Shown: positions 3,272 to 11,823 of the stretch, one piece after another | Numbering within the stretch: the first letter of the stretch is position 1 | Layout: each line of letters opens with the position of its first letter | Translations under genes and position numbers: made by a program | DNA from: Candidatus Altimarinota bacterium | GTDB lineage: Bacteria; Patescibacteriota; Gracilibacteria; UBA4473 | Reading direction: 5' to 3' | Length of the DNA: 46,971 bases | NCBI GenBank assembly: GCA_021734785.1 | Contig: JAIPIF010000007.1 | Location: 1-46,971, forward strand | Notes under the pieces: model-generated | Told to the model about the DNA's origin: nothing | Databases searched by the model: none | What the model saw: only the letters and a program-made list of their open reading frames with translations

Positions 3272-3447
3272 CCTCCGAGCGAAGCGGATGCTTCGCGAGG
3301 CAACATCCCAAGCAAAATCGAAGATTTTGCGCGGAGTGAGGAGCGGTGACGAAGCGCAGTGCGAGTGTCGCAGGTACGGGAAAACTGGGGGGGCCCGTCC
3401 CGACGTGTCGGGATGGGGAGAGGAAGAGCGGATGAAGTATGCCGACA
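3272..3447. repeat. Mosaic repeat, copy A
   Basis: Copy A starts with CCTCCGAGCGAAGCG and continues with a GCGAAG/CTTCGC hairpin, an AAAATCGAAGATTTTGCGCG block, a CGAAGCGCAGTGCGAG block and AGCGGATGAAGTATGC. It matches copy B (3478-3648) over most of its length. The two differ where short palindromes are swapped: copy A carries GTCCCGACGTGTCGGGA where copy B carries GCAGAATCGAAGATTCTG. Confidence 0.8.
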
Positions 3448-3477
3448 GTGCAAGAAAAAAATCCCCTCGTCTAAAAA

Positions 3478-3648
3478 CCTCCGAGCGAAGCGAGTGCTTC
3501 GCTACAAAAACCCCAAGCAAAATCGAAGATTTTGCGCGGAGTGAGGAGCGGTGACGAAGCGCAGTGCGAATGCCGCAGGTACGGGAAAACTGGGGCCCCC
3601 GCAGAATCGAAGATTCTGTGGGGAGAGGAGGAGCGGATGAAGTATGCA
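3478..3648. repeat. Mosaic repeat, copy B
   Basis: This is the second copy of the repeat at 3272-3447, nearly identical in the segments around AAAATCGAAGATTTTGCGCG and GAGCGGTGACGAAGCGCAG. It carries a different internal palindrome (CAGAATCGAAGATTCTG, 3602-3618). The alternation of constant and exchanged palindromic modules resembles mosaic intergenic repeat families rather than a tandem duplication. Confidence 0.8.
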
Positions 3649-3697
3649 GAGCTGCTGGCAAAGCCAGCCGCGAGGACAACGAAGTCCGCGACGACGA

Positions 3698-3717
3698 TGG
3701 TACAGGCGGAGGGATTC
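3698..3717 (+). repeat. 20-bp copy of the tRNA-Arg 3' end
   Basis: TGGTACAGGCGGAGGGATTC at 3698-3717 is identical to 11747-11766, the complement of the CCA end, acceptor 3' strand and part of the T arm of the tRNA-Arg gene. It may be a remnant of an earlier insertion at the same tRNA, or part of a repeat that captured a tRNA end. It lies 174 bp outside the composition boundary, so I do not take it as the active left junction. Confidence 0.75.
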
Positions 3718-3723
3718 TCTCAT

Positions 3724-3869
3724 CCCGCTCCGCGGGAAATCGAGGAATTTGACATCCTCCCCTTCGGCAAGCTCAGGGTCGGTGCAAATTCTCGAACCCC
3801 GGGTTCTCATCCCTCACCGTGCAAGCACGGCGAAATACACACGCCCTCTTCGAGGGCAAGTGCATTTCG
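3724..3869. repeat. Cluster of hairpins next to the island
   Basis: Three inverted repeats are visible. CCCGC-TCC-GCGGG lies at 3724-3736. CCGTG-CAAG-CACGG lies at about 3817-3830. A longer imperfect hairpin at 3831-3869 has arms CGAAATACACACGCCCTC and GAGGGCAAGTGCATTTCG. Between them, at about 3794-3808, is a CGAACCCCGGGTTC palindrome that resembles elements at 18614-18639 and 21530-21555. Confidence 0.65.
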
Positions 3870-3871
3870 CC

Positions 3872-3878
3872 TGGTACA
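3872..3878 (+). other. Candidate attL core (TGGTACA)
   Basis: TGGTACA here matches the seven bases at 11747-11753. Sequence to its left is GC-rich and host-like; sequence to its right is AT-rich like the island. It is in the same reading frame, relative to the recombinase, as the TGG TAC codons at 11747-11752, so excision at this core keeps the recombinase frame open. Confidence 0.6.
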
Positions 3879-3997
3879 CGCTCATAAACAGGTTTCAAAC
3901 CGATTACTATCAAGAAATTTTGGCACTTTACAAACAATTCAGAATACACAAAGAACTATTCCCAATAGAAATAATTAAGCAAAAGGCTACAATGTAA
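3872..3997 (+). other. Possible displaced 3' end of the serine recombinase gene
   Basis: The frame starting at TGG 3872 reads WYTLINRFQTDYYQEILAL and continues to TAA at 3995-3997, 41 residues in all. Joined at the core to the recombinase body (which ends SSKSSE before the tRNA) it would give ...SSEWYTLINRFQT. As I recall, many large serine recombinases end with a W..hh..hRT-like motif, and this tail fits it better than the tRNA-encoded tail does. In the integrated state the segment has no start codon of its own. This is an inference from frame, composition and motif. Confidence 0.5.
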
Positions 3998-4016
3998 ACA
4001 TTCCACTAAAGATGTC

Positions 4017-5249
4017 ATGAAGAAACAAAAATTAAATTTAGAGTTTGATATCCCTAACTTGGTAATTGCTATGTTCTTGTTGATAGAACATAGAAAACAA
4101 GAAAAATCTCAGAAGAAAATTCAAAAACGATACGAGGAAGGAAAGCTCTCACGATACTCAGAAATATCAATTGAAGGCTTAAATGAAAAAGAAAAGCAAG
4201 AAATCTTAAATGGTAGAAAGCACGAAGCTAAAAAAGAGGAAGGCATCTTTCATTATTCATTTATGTATATTGGGTATAAGGAAGAAAGAATCATAAATAT
4301 TCTTACTTATTTTCTACTTGATGAGCTTTTAGAAAAAATAATAGCAACTAAATATAAGGCTCTCAACTCAATAGATAGGGAGCTTGTTGAGGTTAGAGAG
4401 GTGGAAAAATCAGATATTAAAAAGCTCACACCATTAGATATTCCAACTCCTTTTATTGAATCTAAAGAATTTGAAGAAGCCGAAGAAAATGATGAATACT
4501 GGGAGTATGAAATCAAGGTTAATAGCTCAAAGTTAGAAAAGTTCGTAAAAGAAAACCTTAAACTATGGGAAGAATCTAAATTCTATACAGACTCAAAAAA
4601 TATAAGAAAATCCGAAGTACAACTAAAAGGCTTTGTAGAAGAATTATTTAAGCAACTAAACTCTTATCCAAGAGAAGGTTTAATAATTGAATATGAATTT
4701 GATGAAAAATTTTATGAAGATAATAAGGAAGAATGGTTCTTGTCTTGTCTTTTTTTAGAGAAAATTAAGTTGATTGAAATTTCAGAAATTAGGATTTATC
4801 GAACTCGTGTAGGGACATACGAAACGATATTCCTATTTATAAAAATCAATATCTTGGATGATTTTTTTGATACATTTGAATCAATTGAAAACATTGCTAA
4901 CTTTGATTTTAAGCAACTGATATCTGGTGAAAAAAGTGTTATCAAAAAGAAAGAGTTCCAACCTATCATAAATCTCAGCACAAGTACTTTGTCTGTTAAA
5001 AAATACAAAATCCCAATACGAAAGATGAGTAATCAATATCACTTATTGAGTGTTTTAAATAAAGATGTCTATAAAAATTGGGAATTTTCAGAGGTTGCAG
5101 AAATAATAGATAGAGAAGGACAATGGAAAAAATGGTATAATGTTGCAGACGCTATAAAAAAGAAGGTTGCAATAGAAACAAATGGTGAGGTGAAAGACTT
5201 TTTAATAACTACAACAAGTGCTGTTCAGATAAATCCTGAATACATTTAA
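4017..5249 (+). CDS. Unknown 410-aa island protein
   Basis: This is the first complete gene of the island. I do not recognise a family. The protein is rich in Lys, Glu and Ile, with no signal peptide or membrane segment. The N-terminal third has a charged helical stretch (about residues 28-75), and acidic runs occur near 150-160. The last 75 residues, with WEFSEVAEIIDRE and WYNVADAIKKKVA, look like a compact helical, possibly winged-helix, domain. It precedes the 50-aa, SpoVG-like and Rep genes, so a role in replication or control of the element is possible but unproven. The ATG at 4017 has no clear Shine-Dalgarno sequence. Confidence 0.7.
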   Translation: MKKQKLNLEFDIPNLVIAMFLLIEHRKQEKSQKKIQKRYEEGKLSRYSEISIEGLNEKEKQEILNGRKHEAKKEEGIFHYSFMYIGYKEERIINILTYFLLDELLEKIIATKYKALNSIDRELVEVREVEKSDIKKLTPLDIPTPFIESKEFEEAEENDEYWEYEIKVNSSKLEKFVKENLKLWEESKFYTDSKNIRKSEVQLKGFVEELFKQLNSYPREGLIIEYEFDEKFYEDNKEEWFLSCLFLEKIKLIEISEIRIYRTRVGTYETIFLFIKINILDDFFDTFESIENIANFDFKQLISGEKSVIKKKEFQPIINLSTSTLSVKKYKIPIRKMSNQYHLLSVLNKDVYKNWEFSEVAEIIDREGQWKKWYNVADAIKKKVAIETNGEVKDFLITTTSAVQINPEYI

Positions 5250-5307
5250 GATTTTTCAGATTTATCTTACAGAATCTTAAAACACAAGATTCCCATAATT
5301 GTTCTTG

Positions 5308-5460
5308 ATGATTTCATCAGAGCAAAGTTTTCAGAAAGCTATTGAAGGATTGTATGACCATCCTCTTTCTCAAGAAGAGAAAAATGAGGCGGTCGCAAAT
5401 CTGACAGGCTTTTTAAATGTTCTGATTGAAATTGACAAATCTCTTAACCAGAAAAAGTAA
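5308..5460 (+). CDS. Small 50-aa island protein
   Basis: An ATG at 5308 opens a 50-codon frame beginning MISSEQSFQKAIEGLYDH and ending DKSLNQKK. Its TAA overlaps the ATG of the next gene by one base (TAATG), a layout typical of translational coupling and the main support for calling it real. The product is predicted to be helical and cytoplasmic. I do not recognise a family. Codon use matches the neighbouring AT-rich genes. Confidence 0.6.
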   Translation: MISSEQSFQKAIEGLYDHPLSQEEKNEAVANLTGFLNVLIEIDKSLNQKK

Positions 5461-5753
5461 TGACTAAAATTTCTGAAATTCAAATCATACCTATTAAGCC
5501 ACAAAAAGGATTGTTAGCTTTTGCTAACTTTGTGCTTGATGAAAAACTATTTGTAAGCTCGGTTGCCATACACACTAAAATTGATGGCTCAGGTTATCGC
5601 ATAACCTATCCAAAAAAGAATCAGTTTGACCTTTTTCATCCTATAAATCGTGAAACATCAAAAACTATAGAAAAAGCGGTTATTTCTAAATTTAAAAATG
5701 TAATGAAACTTAATAATGATAGATACAATAGTCCTTTCGATACCACAAGATAA
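5460..5753 (+). CDS. SpoVG-like protein
   Basis: The 97-residue product matches the SpoVG layout (PF04026; usual length about 85-100). The N-terminal strand pattern SEIQIIPIKPQKGLLAFANF corresponds to the start of SpoVG. FHPINRETSKTIEKAVISKF, around residues 59-78, corresponds to the SpoVG HPIN..TR..I..AV motif with C-terminal helix. SpoVG proteins are small nucleic-acid-binding regulators, and SpoVG-like genes occur on phages and plasmids beside replication genes. It is coupled to the 50-aa gene upstream, and its last 38 bases overlap the replication gene downstream. A role as DNA-binding accessory or regulator of the element is inferred. Confidence 0.75.
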   Translation: MTKISEIQIIPIKPQKGLLAFANFVLDEKLFVSSVAIHTKIDGSGYRITYPKKNQFDLFHPINRETSKTIEKAVISKFKNVMKLNNDRYNSPFDTTR

Positions 5754-6873
5754 ATTCAAAATTCTTAATCATAGACGGTTCAACCCATCTACTGAAGGTC
5801 TTTTCGTGCCTCCATATACCGTAATGGGTGGGAAACCTTTTATAAAATCAGTGCAGAATCCTCCAAAATCAGCATTTAAAAATGGAGTCTATTTACCAAG
5901 ACTAACCGTTATTAAGGCTATTCGTAATAGTGGCTATGTTATTGAATTAAAAATAGAGTTATCACTTCCCAAACTTTTTTTTGGTAATAATTTTGATGAA
6001 TTGGAAAATAATAATTTTCTACGAATTATACGCCTGCTTAGCCGTGCTTTATATAGTATGGAAGTAGAAGTTGCTTTTGAAGATTTAGAAAATGCTTCAG
6101 TTTCAGCTATTCACTATTCAAAAAACATTCATCTAAAGAATTATACTTCGTGTTCTATGGTCTTGAGTGAACTGCAGAAAATAGACCTTTCTCAAAGAAT
6201 AGATGTTGGTTCTGAAAAATTCCGAAACGGTGGACACGCTTTACATTTTCATACCAATACCAGAGACCTTGTGTTTTACGATAAAATAAAAGACTTGGAG
6301 CAGGCTAAAGTAAGTGAAAAGCGTGCTATAGAAAAAGATAATCTAATTCAAATGGCACTCTTTGATGAGTTTCCAAATCCGAAAGCTCTTCAAGTCCTTC
6401 GGATGGAGCTACGACTTGGAAACCCTCAAGAAATAAAACGAACTTTCTCAAAAGTAGGAATAGAAACCGATTTAAGGTTCAATTTACTCTTCAAAAAACA
6501 TATTTCACAGAAGGTGCTTAAGCACTTCTGGGAACAAATTCAGGAATCAAGCCAAATTCTTAACTTTAAGACAGAAGGCGTGTTTGAAATGGCAGAAAGC
6601 CTCAAAGCCAATAACCCAAACTTAAAAGCACAGAAAATACTTGAATACATTGGTTTTCTTGTTTTGGGTAAAGAAGAAAGCACAAAACGCCTTAGGAGCT
6701 TCTTAGGCTATGAAGGCTCATCAAATGCTAATCGTAAGTGGTATGCTGTTAAAAAAGCTATTAAATCGCTCAAATATGACCGCAGGGGCAATTATCAGGC
6801 GTTAGATGAAGTAGGAAGTAGCTTGGTAAATTATGAGCCTACAAAGTTATGCAATTTTAATATAAACGAATAA
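5716..6873 (+). CDS. Phage/plasmid replication protein, gene II/X-like
   Basis: The 385-residue protein starts with MIDTIVLSIP, the usual opening of phage gene II/X-type and RstA-like replication proteins. It has a His-rich HALHFHTN segment at about 174-181 (HFH is a candidate HUH metal motif), FYDK at 187-190 and LRMELRL at 228-234, which recall the YxK and LRxELRL motifs of these families. Such proteins nick one strand to start rolling-circle replication. This implies a circular, self-replicating state for the island after excision. The start overlaps spoVG by 38 bases. The catalytic tyrosine cannot be assigned by eye, and the family call is by motif pattern. Confidence 0.7.
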   Translation: MIDTIVLSIPQDKFKILNHRRFNPSTEGLFVPPYTVMGGKPFIKSVQNPPKSAFKNGVYLPRLTVIKAIRNSGYVIELKIELSLPKLFFGNNFDELENNNFLRIIRLLSRALYSMEVEVAFEDLENASVSAIHYSKNIHLKNYTSCSMVLSELQKIDLSQRIDVGSEKFRNGGHALHFHTNTRDLVFYDKIKDLEQAKVSEKRAIEKDNLIQMALFDEFPNPKALQVLRMELRLGNPQEIKRTFSKVGIETDLRFNLLFKKHISQKVLKHFWEQIQESSQILNFKTEGVFEMAESLKANNPNLKAQKILEYIGFLVLGKEESTKRLRSFLGYEGSSNANRKWYAVKKAIKSLKYDRRGNYQALDEVGSSLVNYEPTKLCNFNINE

Positions 6874-6884
6874 ACTGATTTAGT

Positions 6885-7157
6885 ATGGTTAAAAATGTAA
6901 AAAAGATTTGGAATAGTAAAAAGTCGCTCAGAAATATCAATATTGGTCTAATGGGGGTTTTTTTAATTGGTATGTTTAAAGATGTTATGGGAAATGATTC
7001 TTATTTTTTGGCTTTTTTACTATTGGTCTTTAATGAATGGGGAGATGTTCGTACATATAGTATCAAGGCTTTAAGAATAATTTTTATCACCCTTTTGACT
7101 TTAGTTGCTTCTTATTCTATTTTTGGTAAGAAAATAATCTTAAAATATCTTCGATGA
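6885..7157 (+). CDS. Small membrane protein, 90 aa
   Basis: A basic N-terminus (KNVKKIWNSKKSLRN) is followed by two or three hydrophobic segments, at about residues 20-33, 40-50 and 62-80, and a basic C-terminal tail. The protein is predicted to lie in the cytoplasmic membrane. Its stop overlaps the start of the next gene by 4 bases (ATGA), so the two are probably translated together and may work as a pair. I recognise no family. Confidence 0.65.
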   Translation: MVKNVKKIWNSKKSLRNINIGLMGVFLIGMFKDVMGNDSYFLAFLLLVFNEWGDVRTYSIKALRIIFITLLTLVASYSIFGKKIILKYLR

Positions 7158-7822
7158 AAAATACCTTCTCACGCTTCTTATTTGTGCTTGCTATAGGGGT
7201 ATTATACCTTTTTATATCAAAGAATTATTTTGGTGAAAATATATCTGAAGAGAATATCCAAAAAATAGCAAAAGAAGTAGTTGAAAAGACCGAAGAAATA
7301 AACCAACCCCCAAAACTGGATTTGTCAGAATTTGAAAATGAATTTCCAGATGAAACAGACCAAAATATCATTTTGATGCCTCAAGATTATTCTTTTCCCA
7401 ACTTTCCTATAACTGCTCAAGGAGTGGCTAAAGAATCAAAGCTACTGAAAGTAGATGGTAAATTAAAATCTGCAACACTAAATATTTCAGCAAGTGCCAA
7501 CAGGCATTCGGCTGTTTACTTCTATATTGACGCAGGTTCAAAGGGCGGTCTTATTGATGCAACTCGCAATGAGAACGAATCAAGAATTGTTTCTGGTGGT
7601 TTTAAATATCAGGAAGATTATGAAAAATCCTTTGACCTTAAGTCGTTAAATGTATCAAACAAACCTCAGGGAAATATTAAAATTCCTGTTCTCGACATTC
7701 TAAATGACAACAAATGGCATCATTTTATAGGATTTGTTAATTCAGAAGGAGGAATCCTGAAAGAGTTTTCTATTGATTATGAATGTGAAAGTGTTTGTGA
7801 AATTAAAATTAAAAACCCATAA
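7154..7822 (+). CDS. Membrane-anchored protein with possible LamG-like extracellular domain, 222 aa
   Basis: A single N-terminal hydrophobic segment (about residues 7-22) is followed by an acidic linker with EENIQKIAKEVVEKTEE. About 150 residues of beta-rich sequence follow. The late segment NDNKWHHFIGFVNSEGG resembles the W-H-H strand and loop of LamG/concanavalin-like sandwich domains, but the match is short. Two cysteines near the end (CESVC) could form a disulfide. The product is probably anchored in the membrane facing outward. It is coupled to the 90-aa membrane protein by a 4-base overlap. Surface attachment or contact is a guess. Confidence 0.6.
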   Translation: MKNTFSRFLFVLAIGVLYLFISKNYFGENISEENIQKIAKEVVEKTEEINQPPKLDLSEFENEFPDETDQNIILMPQDYSFPNFPITAQGVAKESKLLKVDGKLKSATLNISASANRHSAVYFYIDAGSKGGLIDATRNENESRIVSGGFKYQEDYEKSFDLKSLNVSNKPQGNIKIPVLDILNDNKWHHFIGFVNSEGGILKEFSIDYECESVCEIKIKNP

Positions 7823-7824
7823 AA

Positions 7825-8532
7825 ATGTATCTAAAATATATAACTGATGAAAAGTTAATTGAAGAAGTTAAAAAAATATTAGCTGTAATTGAGAAAGCTA
7901 AATCTAACGATATTTATAGCAACGCACTTGACCCATTTAGTTTTATTTTTGATGTAACAGCAAATGGCTTAACTGTCGAAGAATGGTTTGAGCAAGAAGA
8001 AGTTAGGCAAGCTCAAAAATCAATGCAGAATCAAATTGGAAATTTTCATCAAGGTATAGTTGGAAATTCAATTGGTTGGAGTGATTTAGGAATTGGAAAA
8101 GTTATTGATTTGAAATGTGATTCAAAAAAAATTCTGGCTGAAATTAAAAATAAGCATAATACAACTAAAGGAAATCATAAAATAAATGTTTATGATGACT
8201 TAGAGATTATTTTGAATATGCCAGAGTATAAAGATTATACTGGTTATTATGTTGAGGTAATCCCTGCAAATAAGAATGTCTACAATAAACCATTTCAACC
8301 ACCTGATAATAAAATTAAAGATAAGGAAAAAAAGAACAGACCAATGAATGAAAAAATCCGACAAATTGATGGAAAAAGCTTCTATTCTATGGTTGGTGGA
8401 TATGAGAATGCATTAAAAGATTTGTATTTAGTTATTCCTAAGATTGTTTCCGAATTAACAGGGAAGCCTTTATCAGAAAAGGATGTTTCAAAATATTTAG
8501 AAATATTAAATTCAAGTTACAATTTCAGGTAA
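7825..8532 (+). CDS. Type II restriction endonuclease, Eco47II/Sau96I-type family
   Basis: The 235-residue protein carries NFHQGIVGNSIGWSDLG followed by AEIKNKHNTTKGNHK and YDDLE, which I recognise as the core of the Eco47II restriction endonuclease family (PF09553). Members cut GGNCC-type sites. The PD-(D/E)XK-like active site is suggested by D95 or another upstream acidic residue plus E106-x-K108. The cytosine-C5 methyltransferase gene lies 57 bases downstream on the same strand, which fits a complete type II system. The specificity is inferred from the family only. The system could stabilise the island by post-segregational killing or protect its host. Confidence 0.8.
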   Translation: MYLKYITDEKLIEEVKKILAVIEKAKSNDIYSNALDPFSFIFDVTANGLTVEEWFEQEEVRQAQKSMQNQIGNFHQGIVGNSIGWSDLGIGKVIDLKCDSKKILAEIKNKHNTTKGNHKINVYDDLEIILNMPEYKDYTGYYVEVIPANKNVYNKPFQPPDNKIKDKEKKNRPMNEKIRQIDGKSFYSMVGGYENALKDLYLVIPKIVSELTGKPLSEKDVSKYLEILNSSYNFR

Positions 8533-8536
8533 ATAC

Positions 8537-8555
8537 CCCTTGCATTATGCATTGG
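8537..8555. promoter_or_regulatory. Candidate operator between restriction and methyltransferase genes
   Basis: TGCAT-T-ATGCA at 8541-8551 is a perfect 11-bp inverted repeat, extended by matching CC and GG at 8537-8538 and 8554-8555 with two unpaired bases on each side. It overlaps the -35 region of a possible promoter for the methyltransferase gene. The methyltransferase carries an N-terminal helix-turn-helix domain, so autoregulation at this site is a natural hypothesis. Confidence 0.35.
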
Positions 8556-8567
8556 TTACTATAAGAT
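8540..8567 (+). promoter_or_regulatory. Possible promoter of the HTH-methyltransferase gene
   Basis: TTGCAT (8540-8545), a 16-bp spacer and TAAGAT (8562-8567) form a weak sigma70-type promoter inside the 57-base gap. TATAAG at 8560-8565 is an alternative -10 with a shorter spacer. A separate promoter would allow the methyltransferase to be made before the nuclease. Confidence 0.3.
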
Positions 8568-8589
8568 TGAGGAAATAACTAAATGTAAT

Positions 8590-9870
8590 ATGCAAACATC
8601 TCAAACAAAGAACTCTTATCTAACAGTTCACGAAGTAGCAGAATTTTTGAGTATTAGCTCTGATACTGTCCGAAGATGGGATAAAAAAGGACTTATTAAA
8701 TCTAAGAGAAATTCTCAGAATTATAGAGTTTTTAATAGGGAAGAAGTAAGTCGATTATTTTCAAAAGTTAATGGTGGAGACACAGAAAAAAGTCGCTTTA
8801 AGATTTTGAAAAATAATAAAACAACAAAGTATAATGTTATTGATTTGTTTTCTGGTGCAGGAGGAACAGCTTTAGGTTTTCATAATGCTGGATTGAATCA
8901 CAAACTGTTAGTTGAAATAGATAAGCAGGCTTCGGCAACACTAAAGAAAAATTTTACTGGTGCAGAAATTTTAAATGAAGATATTTCTAATGTCTGTTTT
9001 AAGAAGTATAAAGATAAAATTGATATAGTTGAGGCAGGATTTCCTTGCCAAGCTTTTTCCTCTGCAGGTAAAAAACTTGGGTTTAAAGATACTCGTGGAA
9101 CATTATTTTTTGAATTTGCACGGTGTGTTAACGAGGTAAAGCCTAAGATTGCAGTTGGTGAGAATGTTAGAGGATTATTAAATCACGATGGAGGTCGAAC
9201 TTTAGAAACAATGTTAAATGTTTTGGATGAAATTGGATATAGGGCTACATTTAAGCTTTTAAGAGCACAATATTTAGATGTTCCTCAAAAGAGAGAGCGT
9301 TTAATAATTATGGCAGTAAGAAAGGATTTAGATATGCCAATGCTGTTTCCAAAAGAAAAAAATTACACAATATCAGTAAAAGAAGCCTTTGAAAATGTAC
9401 CAAAATCAGAAGGACAAAAATACAATGATAAGAAGAAAGAAGTATTAAAGCTTGTCCCAGCAGGTGGTTATTGGAGAGATTTGCCAATTGATATCCAAAA
9501 GGAATATATGGGAAAGAGCTTTTATCACGGAGGAGGAAAGACAGGGATGGCACGAAGACTTAGTTGGGATGAACCAAGTTTAACTATTGTTTGTAGTCCT
9601 GCTCAAAAACAAACAGAAAGATGTCATCCTAAAGAGACTCGTCCTCTCACTATAAGAGAATCTGCTCGTATGCAGACCTTCCCGGACAATTGGGCGTTTC
9701 AAGGTTCTGTAGGAGCTCAATATAAGCAAGTAGGAAATGCTGTTCCTGTTAATTTAGGTTTTCATATTGGAGAAGCTCTTATTTCTATGCTTGATGGAAC
9801 ATTAGATGATACTAAATTTATAGAAGAGACTCCTAAGGAACTTAATAAAGAGCAAACTTTTAATTTTTGA
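8590..9870 (+). CDS. DNA cytosine-C5 methyltransferase with N-terminal MerR/excisionase-type HTH
   Basis: Residues 10-55 form a helix-turn-helix of the MerR/HTH_17 type (LTVHEVAEFLSISSDTVRRW, then YRVFNREEV). From residue 81 the protein is a C5 methyltransferase. It has DLFSGAGG at 85-92 (S-adenosylmethionine binding), GFPCQAFS with catalytic Cys153, ENV at 191-193, QKRERL and, near 400, QVGNAVP. The variable target-recognition region lies between the last two motifs. The enzyme should protect the sites cut by the Eco47II-type nuclease encoded just upstream. HTH fusions in C5 methyltransferases can repress their own promoter, and a palindrome at 8537-8555 is a candidate site. All catalytic residues are present. 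Confidence 0.9.
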   Translation: MQTSQTKNSYLTVHEVAEFLSISSDTVRRWDKKGLIKSKRNSQNYRVFNREEVSRLFSKVNGGDTEKSRFKILKNNKTTKYNVIDLFSGAGGTALGFHNAGLNHKLLVEIDKQASATLKKNFTGAEILNEDISNVCFKKYKDKIDIVEAGFPCQAFSSAGKKLGFKDTRGTLFFEFARCVNEVKPKIAVGENVRGLLNHDGGRTLETMLNVLDEIGYRATFKLLRAQYLDVPQKRERLIIMAVRKDLDMPMLFPKEKNYTISVKEAFENVPKSEGQKYNDKKKEVLKLVPAGGYWRDLPIDIQKEYMGKSFYHGGGKTGMARRLSWDEPSLTIVCSPAQKQTERCHPKETRPLTIRESARMQTFPDNWAFQGSVGAQYKQVGNAVPVNLGFHIGEALISMLDGTLDDTKFIEETPKELNKEQTFNF

Positions 9871-9873
9871 TAA

Positions 9874-10281
9874 ATGATATTTTCGCATATTAGCTACAAA
9901 AACCTTAACTCAAGACAAAAAGAAAATTATAATTTTCATAAAGTATCAGCAGTTTTAGCTAATTATGGATTTACAAGTATTCGCCTTACTGATGATTGGC
10001 AAGGAGCAGATTTTATAGCCTCTCATATAGACGGTGAAACATTTATAAAGGTTCAGCTCAAAGGTCGTCTCACTTTTGACAAAAAGTACTTAAACAAAGA
10101 AATTTGGGTCGCCTTTCCTTATAAAGAAGACTGGTATTTATACCCTCACGATGATTTAACAAATGAACTTAAAGAATCTCTGAATTTCAAAAACACAACT
10201 TCTTGGCAAGATAAAGGAGCTTATAGTTATAATAGTATAAGTAAGCCTACACTTAAACTTCTTTCTAAATACAAACTGTAA
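9874..10281 (+). CDS. Small protein with PD-(D/E)XK-like motif
   Basis: The 135-residue protein contains DDWQGADFIASHIDGE followed by FIKVQLKGR. The spacing of D46 and Q61-L-K63 resembles the PD-(D/E)XK nuclease core with glutamine in the E position, seen in several repair and restriction nucleases. It sits 3 bases after the methyltransferase gene and 1 base before the recombinase gene, so it is almost certainly in the same transcript. It could be a second nuclease of the restriction system or a nicking accessory. The core is short, so a non-catalytic role is also possible. Confidence 0.5.
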   Translation: MIFSHISYKNLNSRQKENYNFHKVSAVLANYGFTSIRLTDDWQGADFIASHIDGETFIKVQLKGRLTFDKKYLNKEIWVAFPYKEDWYLYPHDDLTNELKESLNFKNTTSWQDKGAYSYNSISKPTLKLLSKYKL

Positions 10282-10282
10282 A

Positions 10283-11812
10283 ATGAAGGCTGTAATTCTT
10301 GTCCGTGTTTCCAGTAAAGAGCAGGAAGATAATCATTCTCTCGATGCTCAACAGGAGAAACTCACCGCTTATTGCGAACAGAAAGGCTTTGAAAAGCCAG
10401 AAGTATTTAGAATTGTTGAATCTTCTACACAAGGAGAACGAAAGAAATTTAATGAAATGATTAAATGGATAAATCAGCAAGGCGAGCTGGTTTATTTAGT
10501 GGTTGATGCTGTTGATAGACTCCAAAGAAGCTTTAAGGAAACCATCATTCTTACCGATATGATGAAAGCCAAAAAGCTTGAACTACATTTTCTTAAAGAG
10601 AACCTGATTTTGGGTGAAGACGCAAACCCGATGCAGGTGATGATGTGGAACTTTGCCGTAATGTGTGCTCAGAATTTCGTTTTAAGCTCTGGTTATAATA
10701 TTAAGCGTTCTAACCAAAGAAAGCTCAATAATGGTGAATACATTCGCCAAGCACCAGTTGGTTATCGCAATTATCGAGATGATAGTGGAAGAAACCAAAT
10801 CAGAGTTGATGAAAATAGAGCCTATTTAGTAAAAGAGGCTTTTGAACTTTATTCAACTGGTAATCACTCTGTTAGTTCGCTTTGGAAGTATTTAAAAGAA
10901 AAAAAGCTTACGGTCATCAAAAAAGCCGAACGACCACTTATTGGTCGAGCCAGCGTTGCCCGAATGCTTCAAGATAAATTCTATATCGGTACAATGACGG
11001 TTAAAGGCAAAGAATATCCACATAATTATCCAACACTTATTGATGATTTCACATTCCAGAAATGCCAAAAAGTAATGCACAGTAAAACTCAAAAGCACAA
11101 AAAAGAAGATACCAAGCATTCTTACGCCCTGAAAGGTATCCTGAAAAATAGAACCACAGGAAGGTTGATGTCAGGCTCGACCACAAAAGGAAATATCTAC
11201 TATTACAGTCCTAAGTATGGCGATAGCCCAGCCTCTAAGAATGTGAAAGAAGAAATCATATTGGCTCAGATAGAAGAAGTTTTTAAAAGCATTGTTATAC
11301 CTTATGAAATTCGCACAGAACTAAAAGAACGACTTAAAAATATCCACGAATCAAAGAATTACTTTAAAGAGCAATCAATCGCCCGAATAAAGAAAAAATA
11401 CAACGGTATTGATAAAAAACTTTCAAACCTGCTTAATTTGCGAATTGACGATAGTATTACTCAGAAAGAGTATAACAAAAAAGCGACTGAACTAAACCAA
11501 GAGAAAAAAGATTTAGAGCTTGAAATAAAGCAGTTTGATGATGCCGATGAAAAGTTTGCTATTACAGTTCAGTACTTACTTGATATATGTTCAAAAGCCC
11601 ACGAACTTTTTATAAGTTCTAAACCAGAGCAGAAACGCCAATTGATTAACTTTGTACTTTCAAACCTTTCCTTAGATGGAGAAAGACTGCACTATGACCT
11701 GAACAAACCGTTCGATGTCATAGCACAATCTTCTAAAAGTTCTGAGTGGTACAGGCGGAGGGATTCGAACCCCCGACACCCGGTTCCGAAGACCGGTGCT
11801 CTAATCCACTGA
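10283..11812 (+). CDS. Large serine recombinase (integrase) of the island
   Basis: The 509-residue protein opens with MKAVILVRVSSKEQ. The RVS motif places the catalytic serine at residue 10. A resolvase domain covers about 1-150, with DAVDRLQRS typical of the family. A recombinase domain follows (GYRNYRDDSGRNQI to about residue 275), and then a coiled-coil region near 370-430. The zinc-ribbon region, ALKGILKNRTTGRLMSG, lacks the paired cysteines usual there. The last 21 residues (WYRRRDSNPRHP and on) are antisense translation of the tRNA-Arg gene, because the frame crosses the right junction. The probable native tail is at 3872-3997. The recombinase should integrate and excise the element. 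Confidence 0.92.
   Translation: MKAVILVRVSSKEQEDNHSLDAQQEKLTAYCEQKGFEKPEVFRIVESSTQGERKKFNEMIKWINQQGELVYLVVDAVDRLQRSFKETIILTDMMKAKKLELHFLKENLILGEDANPMQVMMWNFAVMCAQNFVLSSGYNIKRSNQRKLNNGEYIRQAPVGYRNYRDDSGRNQIRVDENRAYLVKEAFELYSTGNHSVSSLWKYLKEKKLTVIKKAERPLIGRASVARMLQDKFYIGTMTVKGKEYPHNYPTLIDDFTFQKCQKVMHSKTQKHKKEDTKHSYALKGILKNRTTGRLMSGSTTKGNIYYYSPKYGDSPASKNVKEEIILAQIEEVFKSIVIPYEIRTELKERLKNIHESKNYFKEQSIARIKKKYNGIDKKLSNLLNLRIDDSITQKEYNKKATELNQEKKDLELEIKQFDDADEKFAITVQYLLDICSKAHELFISSKPEQKRQLINFVLSNLSLDGERLHYDLNKPFDVIAQSSKSSEWYRRRDSNPRHPVPKTGALIH
11747..11753 (+). other. Candidate attR core (TGGTACA) at the tRNA-Arg 3' end
   Basis: These seven bases repeat the sequence at 3872-3878. They are the complement of the tRNA 3' end TGTACCA, so integration leaves the complete tRNA gene intact on the right side. 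Confidence 0.6.
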
Positions 11813-11823
11813 GCTACGCCTGC
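11747..11823 (-). tRNA. tRNA-Arg (anticodon TCG)
   Basis: On the minus strand the 77 bases fold as a full cloverleaf with CCA encoded. The acceptor is GCAGGCG paired with CGCCTGT (a G-U first pair). The anticodon stem CCGGT/ACCGG closes the loop CTTCGGA, so the anticodon is TCG, reading CGA. The T arm is GGGGG-TTCGAAT-CCCTC. The gene is the integration target of the island, and 66 of its bases are also read by the recombinase frame on the other strand. Confidence 0.95.

Follow-up and report, generated by a model that had tools for sequence, protein, structure and literature searches.

The window analyzed here is the whole 46,971-nucleotide stretch of contig JAIPIF010000007.1 from a Candidatus Altimarinota bacterium, and it lies within a 1.06-Mb genome of nine contigs. 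It contains a 7,875-bp, AT-rich element (3872–11746) inserted at the 3′ end of a tRNA-Arg gene. The element is probably an integrative, plasmid-like entity with its attachment site (attP) inside its own integrase gene, an integrase tail that is exchanged at insertion, a putative circular form copied by Rep, and restriction-modification cargo. This explanation is preferred because the left end of the element continues the integrase frame, the left attachment cores (attL) of related elements match their own tRNA genes, and natural junction open reading frames (ORFs) exist. It is also preferred because the same element with other cargo occupies tRNA-Arg in another genus, element-free sites are found, and the module order recurs in approximately 45 loci. 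Also in its favor, the Rep matches Phage_CRI and rolling-circle initiators rank first in a structural second look, a probably circular 2,912-bp contig encodes a divergent Rep, and restriction-modification fills 14 of 17 scanned cargo slots. An initial annotation of the window had proposed a plasmid-like island with a Rep, restriction-modification, and a serine integrase, and the same-order loci, the tRNA 3′-end boundaries, the element-free sites, and the Rep model bear this out.

The ends of the element were located by composition, homology, and comparison with unoccupied sites. The G+C fraction (GC) falls from approximately 0.5 outside to approximately 0.3 within 3872–11746. The left end is the attL core TGGTACACGC (3872–3881, plus strand), where both the GC drop and homology to the element at locus L009 begin. 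The second copy of the core at the other end, attR TGGTACAGGC (11747–11756, plus strand), has TGGTACA in common with attL. The target is an intact tRNA-Arg (TCG) gene identified by ARAGORN at 11747–11823 on the minus strand. A terminator-like scan and comparison with loci L152, L156, and L157 identified a host hairpin (3829–3871, strand not assigned) that belongs just downstream of tRNA-Arg and ends immediately before TGGTACACGC at 3872. The insertion separates this hairpin from the tRNA-Arg gene, and in element-free relatives a hairpin is found at the equivalent place. Element-free tRNA-Arg sites are present in the related genomes G001, G002, G005, and G018; these sites and the cores at 3872 and 11747 give the integrase an adjacent att site. 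G001, of the same genus, lacks the element and has a 20-bp repeat near 4967 and an intact tRNA at 5094 directly preceded by the hairpin. The corresponding 20-bp tRNA-end repeat in the window (3698–3717 and 11747) was considered as attL/attR and rejected. The 3698 copy is host DNA because element-free G001 carries the same repeat, and the hairpin lies between it and the true left end. The element start at 4017 in the initial annotation is therefore corrected to 3872, and the tail ORF at 3872–3997 belongs to the integrase. The tRNA-Arg gene at the right end, which the integrase ORF overlaps, had been overlooked. Partial copies of the tRNA-Arg 3′ end occur downstream of the real gene in the window (3698–3717) and at L152, L156, and L157, element-free genomes included, and are perhaps scars of older insertions. 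The window also contains an 89-bp repeat (3302–3650) with two copies that are 96% identical and 205 bp apart. The sister genome G001 has related repeats at its own copy of this tRNA-Arg locus and at other places too; they make up a host repeat family near tRNA genes.

The integrated-state form of the large serine integrase is a 509-residue protein (10283–11812, plus strand) that matches PF00239 (E 1e-17), PF07508 (E 7e-12), and the phrog_95 integrase (E 1e-58). Its ORF overlaps the tRNA-Arg gene of the opposite strand, and frame analysis shows that the residues from Trp489 onward are encoded by the antisense strand of tRNA-Arg. The protein ends in ...SSKSSE-W-YRRRDSNPRHPVPKTGALIH, the Trp and everything after it being tRNA-encoded. 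The detached C-terminal tail lies at the other end of the element (3872–3997, plus strand) and consists of 41 codons and a stop. It was recognized by the continuation of the integrase frame from the core Trp codon and by profile, leave-one-out, and codon-position tests. From that Trp codon the window tail reads WYTLINRFQTDYYQEILALYKQFRIHKELFPIEIIKQKATM and then a stop, and the L009 tail reads WYTLVDILRTDCYQEILSLYNHIRAYKQLLKMEENCFSAII and then a stop; the conserved peptide is WYTL..(F/L).T..YQEIL. Across elements the tail is conserved over 33–45 residues with the pattern W..LvD.FRT..W/Y..I. The attL cores correspond to the 3′ end of each element's own tRNA gene: TGGCTCC for Asn, TGGTAC for Arg, TGGGGTGA for His, TGGCAGGG for Trp, and TGGTGC for Gly. 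The TGG is an in-frame Trp codon wherever the tRNA end and an unbroken integrase are readable. These data place attP inside the integrase gene, which integration would split.

An iterated profile seeded with the window and L009 tails was run on the regions upstream of Rep. Nineteen elements yielded a tail with E ≤ 2e-11, a value inflated for members used in training; the best opposite-strand match had E 0.45. Because of this inflation, leave-one-out profiles were built that excluded the target, its near relatives, and the three core-encoded residues. For 21 of 23 elements, no other segment scored above the true site. An open tail frame of 33–45 codons is present in 21 of the 23, and both exceptions have broken integrases. 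The mean distance to the first stop is 35 codons in the tail frame and 14–15 codons in the other two frames. A second tail type, W..L...FRN..LEF, was found in six further loci; it was first picked by eye and counts as a lead only.

The left-end peptide might not be a protein at all, its conservation belonging to an attP DNA arm bound by the integrase and the open frame being a by-product. Serine integrases require specific sequence over approximately 25 bp to either side of the core, and conservation extends to some third positions (the A in AGA/CGA). However, it continues far past 25 bp (to codons 10–16, and over 41 codons when the window is compared with L009), and the frame closes with a stop at a consistent length. 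Variability is highest at the third codon position and lowest at the second, and all four Thr codons occur. Entropies over codons 4–16 were 1.29, 0.94, and 1.60 at positions 1, 2, and 3, and position 3 exceeded both position 2 (Wilcoxon p 0.003) and position 1 (p 0.011). A DNA arm as the sole cause of the conservation is very improbable, and the codon statistics indicate that the tail is under protein-level selection.

Joined forms of the two integrase segments occur naturally. In tandem elements at one tRNA gene, the integrase end of the first element is joined to the tail of the second. Uninterrupted ORFs made of an integrase end and a tail are present at L035 (160 residues), L039 (143 residues), and L080. 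The cultured Legionella adelaidensis strain NCTC12735 carries, on a 365-kb plasmid, an element in tRNA-Asn with the order orf60, SpoVG, helix-turn-helix (HTH) protein, tyrosine recombinase, serine integrase. A 105-bp integrase 3′ end is present there twice with 95% identity; one copy is joined to a tail (...PHRPKWLPLVSILRTQRREEVVNFGR...) and the other to tRNA-Asn (...PHRPKWLPGQDLNL, stop). The exchange of tails at att can be read from sequence, as can the boundaries, the target, the module order, and the conserved in-frame tail. Given the Legionella case, the attP-in-integrase arrangement extends beyond one phylum. The element of this gammaproteobacterium (NZ_LR134433.1, L190, 1495–13931) also encodes an Eco57I-type methylase with a helicase and an AbiE toxin-antitoxin pair, and its integrase end is duplicated at the left. 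In L035, L095, and L098 a single tRNA gene is accompanied by several left-end tails or pieces of integrase, which shows repeated insertion at the same site. When a contiguous integrase-plus-tail protein was used as the query against IMG/VR and the phage and plasmid records, no match crossed the core into the tail.

From these arrangements we infer a circular form, its replication and transfer, and a function for the tail swap. The circle would be an unbroken, co-oriented ring of integrase, 410-residue protein, orf53, SpoVG, Rep, cargo, and integrase again. The gene for the 410-residue protein (4017) would start 19 bp after the tail stop (3997), so that all the genes would run round the ring with the same orientation. 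The integrase encoded by the circle would have 529 residues and end in W..L...(F/L)(R/Q)T..YQEIL. This tailed enzyme would recombine attP with the target site (attB), which consists of the CCA end and acceptor stem of the tRNA gene. The tRNA gene would stay intact, and the integrase gene would be cut at the core Trp codon. The tail would be left behind at the left end, and the right integrase copy would end in antisense-tRNA residues. The circle would be copied by Rep through rolling-circle replication, and the restriction-modification cargo would protect cells that carry the element and penalize those that lose it. The tail most likely controls the direction or the stability of the reaction, because minimal members show no apparent directionality factor; orf53 and the SpoVG-family protein are candidates for such a role. 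Alternatively, the integrated enzyme may be dead, with the element trapped, or may work as before. The tail swap is proposed as a switch built into integration, one that would bias or lock the direction without a separate directionality factor. We propose more tentatively, and at somewhat less than even chances, that throughout a phylum-wide family insertion rewrites the integrase C terminus so that the enzyme senses circle versus chromosome and sets its direction without a directionality factor.

Free excision is not to be assumed, because integration alters the C terminus of the integrase itself. A stricter proposal is that integration inactivates the enzyme, leaving the element trapped pending the arrival of an intact copy. 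Integration does remove the conserved tail of 33–45 residues, comparable to the archaeal SSV1-type integrases that lose part of their gene (PMC8371274). However, the change is confined to the extreme C terminus, and the catalytic and recombinase domains are kept. The replacement peptide opens with the same Trp and includes conserved antisense T-arm residues (D-S-N). Strict inactivation is less likely than not, though it retains some weight.

The element belongs to a family that is spread across the phylum. Genome G010 (JAACPJ010000006.1, isolate CG_2015-02_41_16), from another genus of the same family, also carries an element in tRNA-Arg, and the Rep of this element is 91% identical in amino acid sequence. 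The DNA identity to the window is 95% over the integrase and 87% over orf53-SpoVG-Rep. Its cargo is an AbiLi/AbiLii pair (an AAA ATPase and a RloB-like protein) in place of restriction-modification. In a third genus (G009), this tRNA has a related integrase 3′ end beside it at the edge of a contig. These copies at the same tRNA point to transfer between genera with exchange of cargo. A Rep profile of three rows matched in 16 of 353 genomes of the class, and a profile of 15 rows matched in 39 of 380 genomes drawn phylum-wide. Approximately 45 loci show the succession orf53, SpoVG, Rep, 0 to 6 kb of other DNA, serine integrase, and tRNA, although some of them lack some modules. The initial annotation called the element a hybrid and raised the possibility that no other element shares its order; the order is that of a conserved family and not of a one-off mosaic. 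Integrase 3′ ends overlap tRNA genes of ten specificities, Asn (the commonest), Arg, His, Trp, Glu, Gln, Ser, Gly, Leu, and Asp. In several members there is no cargo and the integrase directly follows Rep. The cargo slot holds restriction-modification of type II, IIG, or III in 14 of the 17 elements scanned, two of them scored on a methyltransferase alone. The remaining slots contain an AbiL pair, a DUF3800 protein, or no defense match (one protein scanned). At L041, a decayed element in tRNA-Asn has a fragmented Rep and a fragmented integrase. Related serine integrases also run into tRNA-Leu or tRNA-Glu in two gut records deposited in GenBank as 'Bacteriophage sp.' (MT837677.1 and MT836653.1; L191 and L192), whose phage label looks doubtful given the apparent bacterial host genes alongside.

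The near-identical copies across genera show transfer, which would also be expected of an integrative mobilizable element that is nicked at an origin of transfer by Rep or an unrecognized protein and moved by a co-resident conjugative element. Some rolling-circle plasmid Reps can serve conjugation. We did not detect a relaxase or coupling protein among the element ORFs or their family matches, in agreement with the initial annotation, and this counts against mobilization, which we regard as a minority possibility. A plasmid-like element with restriction-modification cargo and a putative circular form remains the preferred explanation.

The putative rolling-circle replication initiator Rep (5716–6873, plus strand) belongs to the Phage_CRI family. 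It matches PF05144 with E 2e-6 and 28.1 bits against a cut-off of 21.7, but this profile is too insensitive for surveys, in which the window's own Rep escaped it. All of 15 Rep sequences have Tyr188-Asp-Lys190 without variation. Foldseek with a Rep structure model returned nothing at E ≤ 0.001. In a structural second look at this model (predicted local distance difference test score, pLDDT, 58), RepDE and RepSTK1 took ranks 1–3 (4CWE, 4CIJ, and 4CWC) with Z 7.0, and the next fold, TBP, had 4.6; a Z below 8 may reflect merely a common arrangement. The root-mean-square deviation from RepDE and RepSTK1 was 4.8–6.6 over 169–185 residues. The model thus supports, without proving, a rolling-circle initiator nearest to the pT181 type. 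The initial annotation had considered that Rep might fall outside the replication initiators, and neither the Phage_CRI match nor the model places it outside them. A structure prediction of the 410-residue protein, also suggested there, had a pLDDT of 36.5. A 3,039-bp contig (L113, 1–3039; G387:C23) has a 127-bp exact terminal overlap and encodes a Rep that is a divergent family member, together with an HTH protein and a 171-residue protein. It is probably a circular plasmid of 2,912 bp from a bacterium with a small genome.

The Rep lies within the gene II protein family and is followed by two small proteins, features that would fit a filamentous-phage satellite or remnant that is replicated by Rep and packaged by a helper inovirus with the aid of the small proteins. 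Filamentous-phage satellites without Zot are known. We did not detect a Zot-type morphogenesis ATPase or a coat gene set among the element ORFs or their Pfam/PHROG matches, as the initial annotation had stated. In most members the interval from Rep to the integrase lacks additional small proteins, and the cargo slot contains restriction-modification and not morphogenesis genes. A tblastn search with Rep gave no match in 50,697 phage records, nor in plasmid records. Inoviruses usually use Xer/tyrosine recombinases or transposases. A phage origin is improbable, and the plasmid-like explanation is retained.

Several observations weigh against the plasmid-like explanation or its details. Just 4 of 15 Rep relatives match Phage_CRI at E 0.01, and the Rep model, built from four sequences, has a mean pLDDT of only 58 in addition to the low Z-score. 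Exact terminal overlaps revealed no circular copies at L092, L034, L102, L043, L008, or L040, and no circular contig bearing the integrase and its tail was found. Some members, for example L031, L038, L040, and L043, have no recognized left-end tail. Part of the tail DNA is probably also an integrase-binding attP arm, so that DNA-level constraint contributes to its conservation. The integrated integrase retains its catalytic and recombinase domains, and excision may still be possible.

Every gene of the 3872–11746 segment is on the plus strand with short gaps or overlaps between genes. The ORF list and Pfam matches confirm that Rep, a SpoVG-like protein, restriction-modification, and a serine integrase share one strand with overlaps, as first annotated. 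The 410-residue protein (4017–5249, plus strand, as are all genes that follow) has no assigned function. An iterated hidden Markov model (HMM) search and alignment found homologs at the same place in L031, L039, L040, and L042, and the protein is present in six loci. It has no Pfam match and no relative in the Protein Data Bank (PDB), its single-sequence structure model was useless, and a weak Csx19 match without a significant stretch was not used. The conserved 53-residue protein orf53 (5299–5460) lies upstream of SpoVG in most family members. The SpoVG-family protein (5460–5753) matches PF04026 with E 7e-8 and 32.9 bits against a cut-off of 29.6, and the family profile matches the SpoVG structures 2ia9, 2i9z, and 2i9x. 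The cargo begins with a 90-residue protein that is probably a membrane protein (6885–7157) and a 222-residue protein with a hydrophobic N terminus (7154–7822), both assigned by sequence inspection. Next are a type II restriction endonuclease of the Eco47II family (7825–8532; PF09553 E 1.6e-47; PADLOC REase_II) and a cytosine-C5 DNA methyltransferase with an N-terminal MerR-type HTH (8590–9870; PF00145 E 2e-82; PF00376 E 9e-10). The two genes are paired and constitute a type II restriction-modification system. A 135-residue protein with no assigned function and no family match (9874–10281) precedes the integrase.

Phage biology and genome engineering share a central question, namely how serine integrases, which also serve as engineering tools, distinguish integration from excision. 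If the proposal is true, an integrase altered by its own reaction is a simple, built-in answer to directionality. To our knowledge, few mobile elements of tiny-genome bacteria have been described in detail. The family shows how such bacteria could exchange restriction-modification and other defense genes through a conserved frame with a swappable defense slot.

The element resembles several known systems. It shares a small, single-strand gene arrangement and perhaps the Rep fold with the pT181-type rolling-circle plasmids (Rep_trans/Phage_CRI), and the Rep family includes the probable circle L113; unlike these plasmids, it is integrated and carries a serine integrase, SpoVG, orf53, and the 410-residue protein. 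Site-specific tRNA insertion and accessory defense cargo are shared with integrative and mobilizable elements and tRNA genomic islands. In contrast to these, it has no relaxase, its integrase is of the serine and not the usual tyrosine type, and attP is within the integrase gene. Cryptic inoviruses also have a gene II-family Rep and a small genome, but the element has no Zot, no coat gene set, and no tblastn similarity to known phage Reps. In mycobacteriophage BPs, attP is located in the repressor gene, and integration alters the repressor C terminus and so its behavior (PMC4557955). BPs and its relatives with integration-dependent immunity are thus alike in having attP in a coding gene with a C terminus altered by integration; there the affected gene is the repressor, whereas here it is the integrase itself, of the serine type. 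A literature search found no serine integrase with attP in its own gene, most subscription papers and preprints lying outside its coverage. Self-disrupting integrases are described in a review as exclusively archaeal and as tyrosine recombinases in all cases (PMC8371274). The archaeal suicidal integrases of the SSV1, pTN3, and pT26-2 type likewise have attP in the integrase gene, target tRNA genes, and are parted by integration. They differ in being archaeal tyrosine recombinases with a separated catalytic domain, whereas the window integrase is a bacterial serine recombinase that loses just a short tail and gains a tRNA-encoded one. By these sequence criteria it looks like a bacterial serine counterpart of the self-disrupting integrases.

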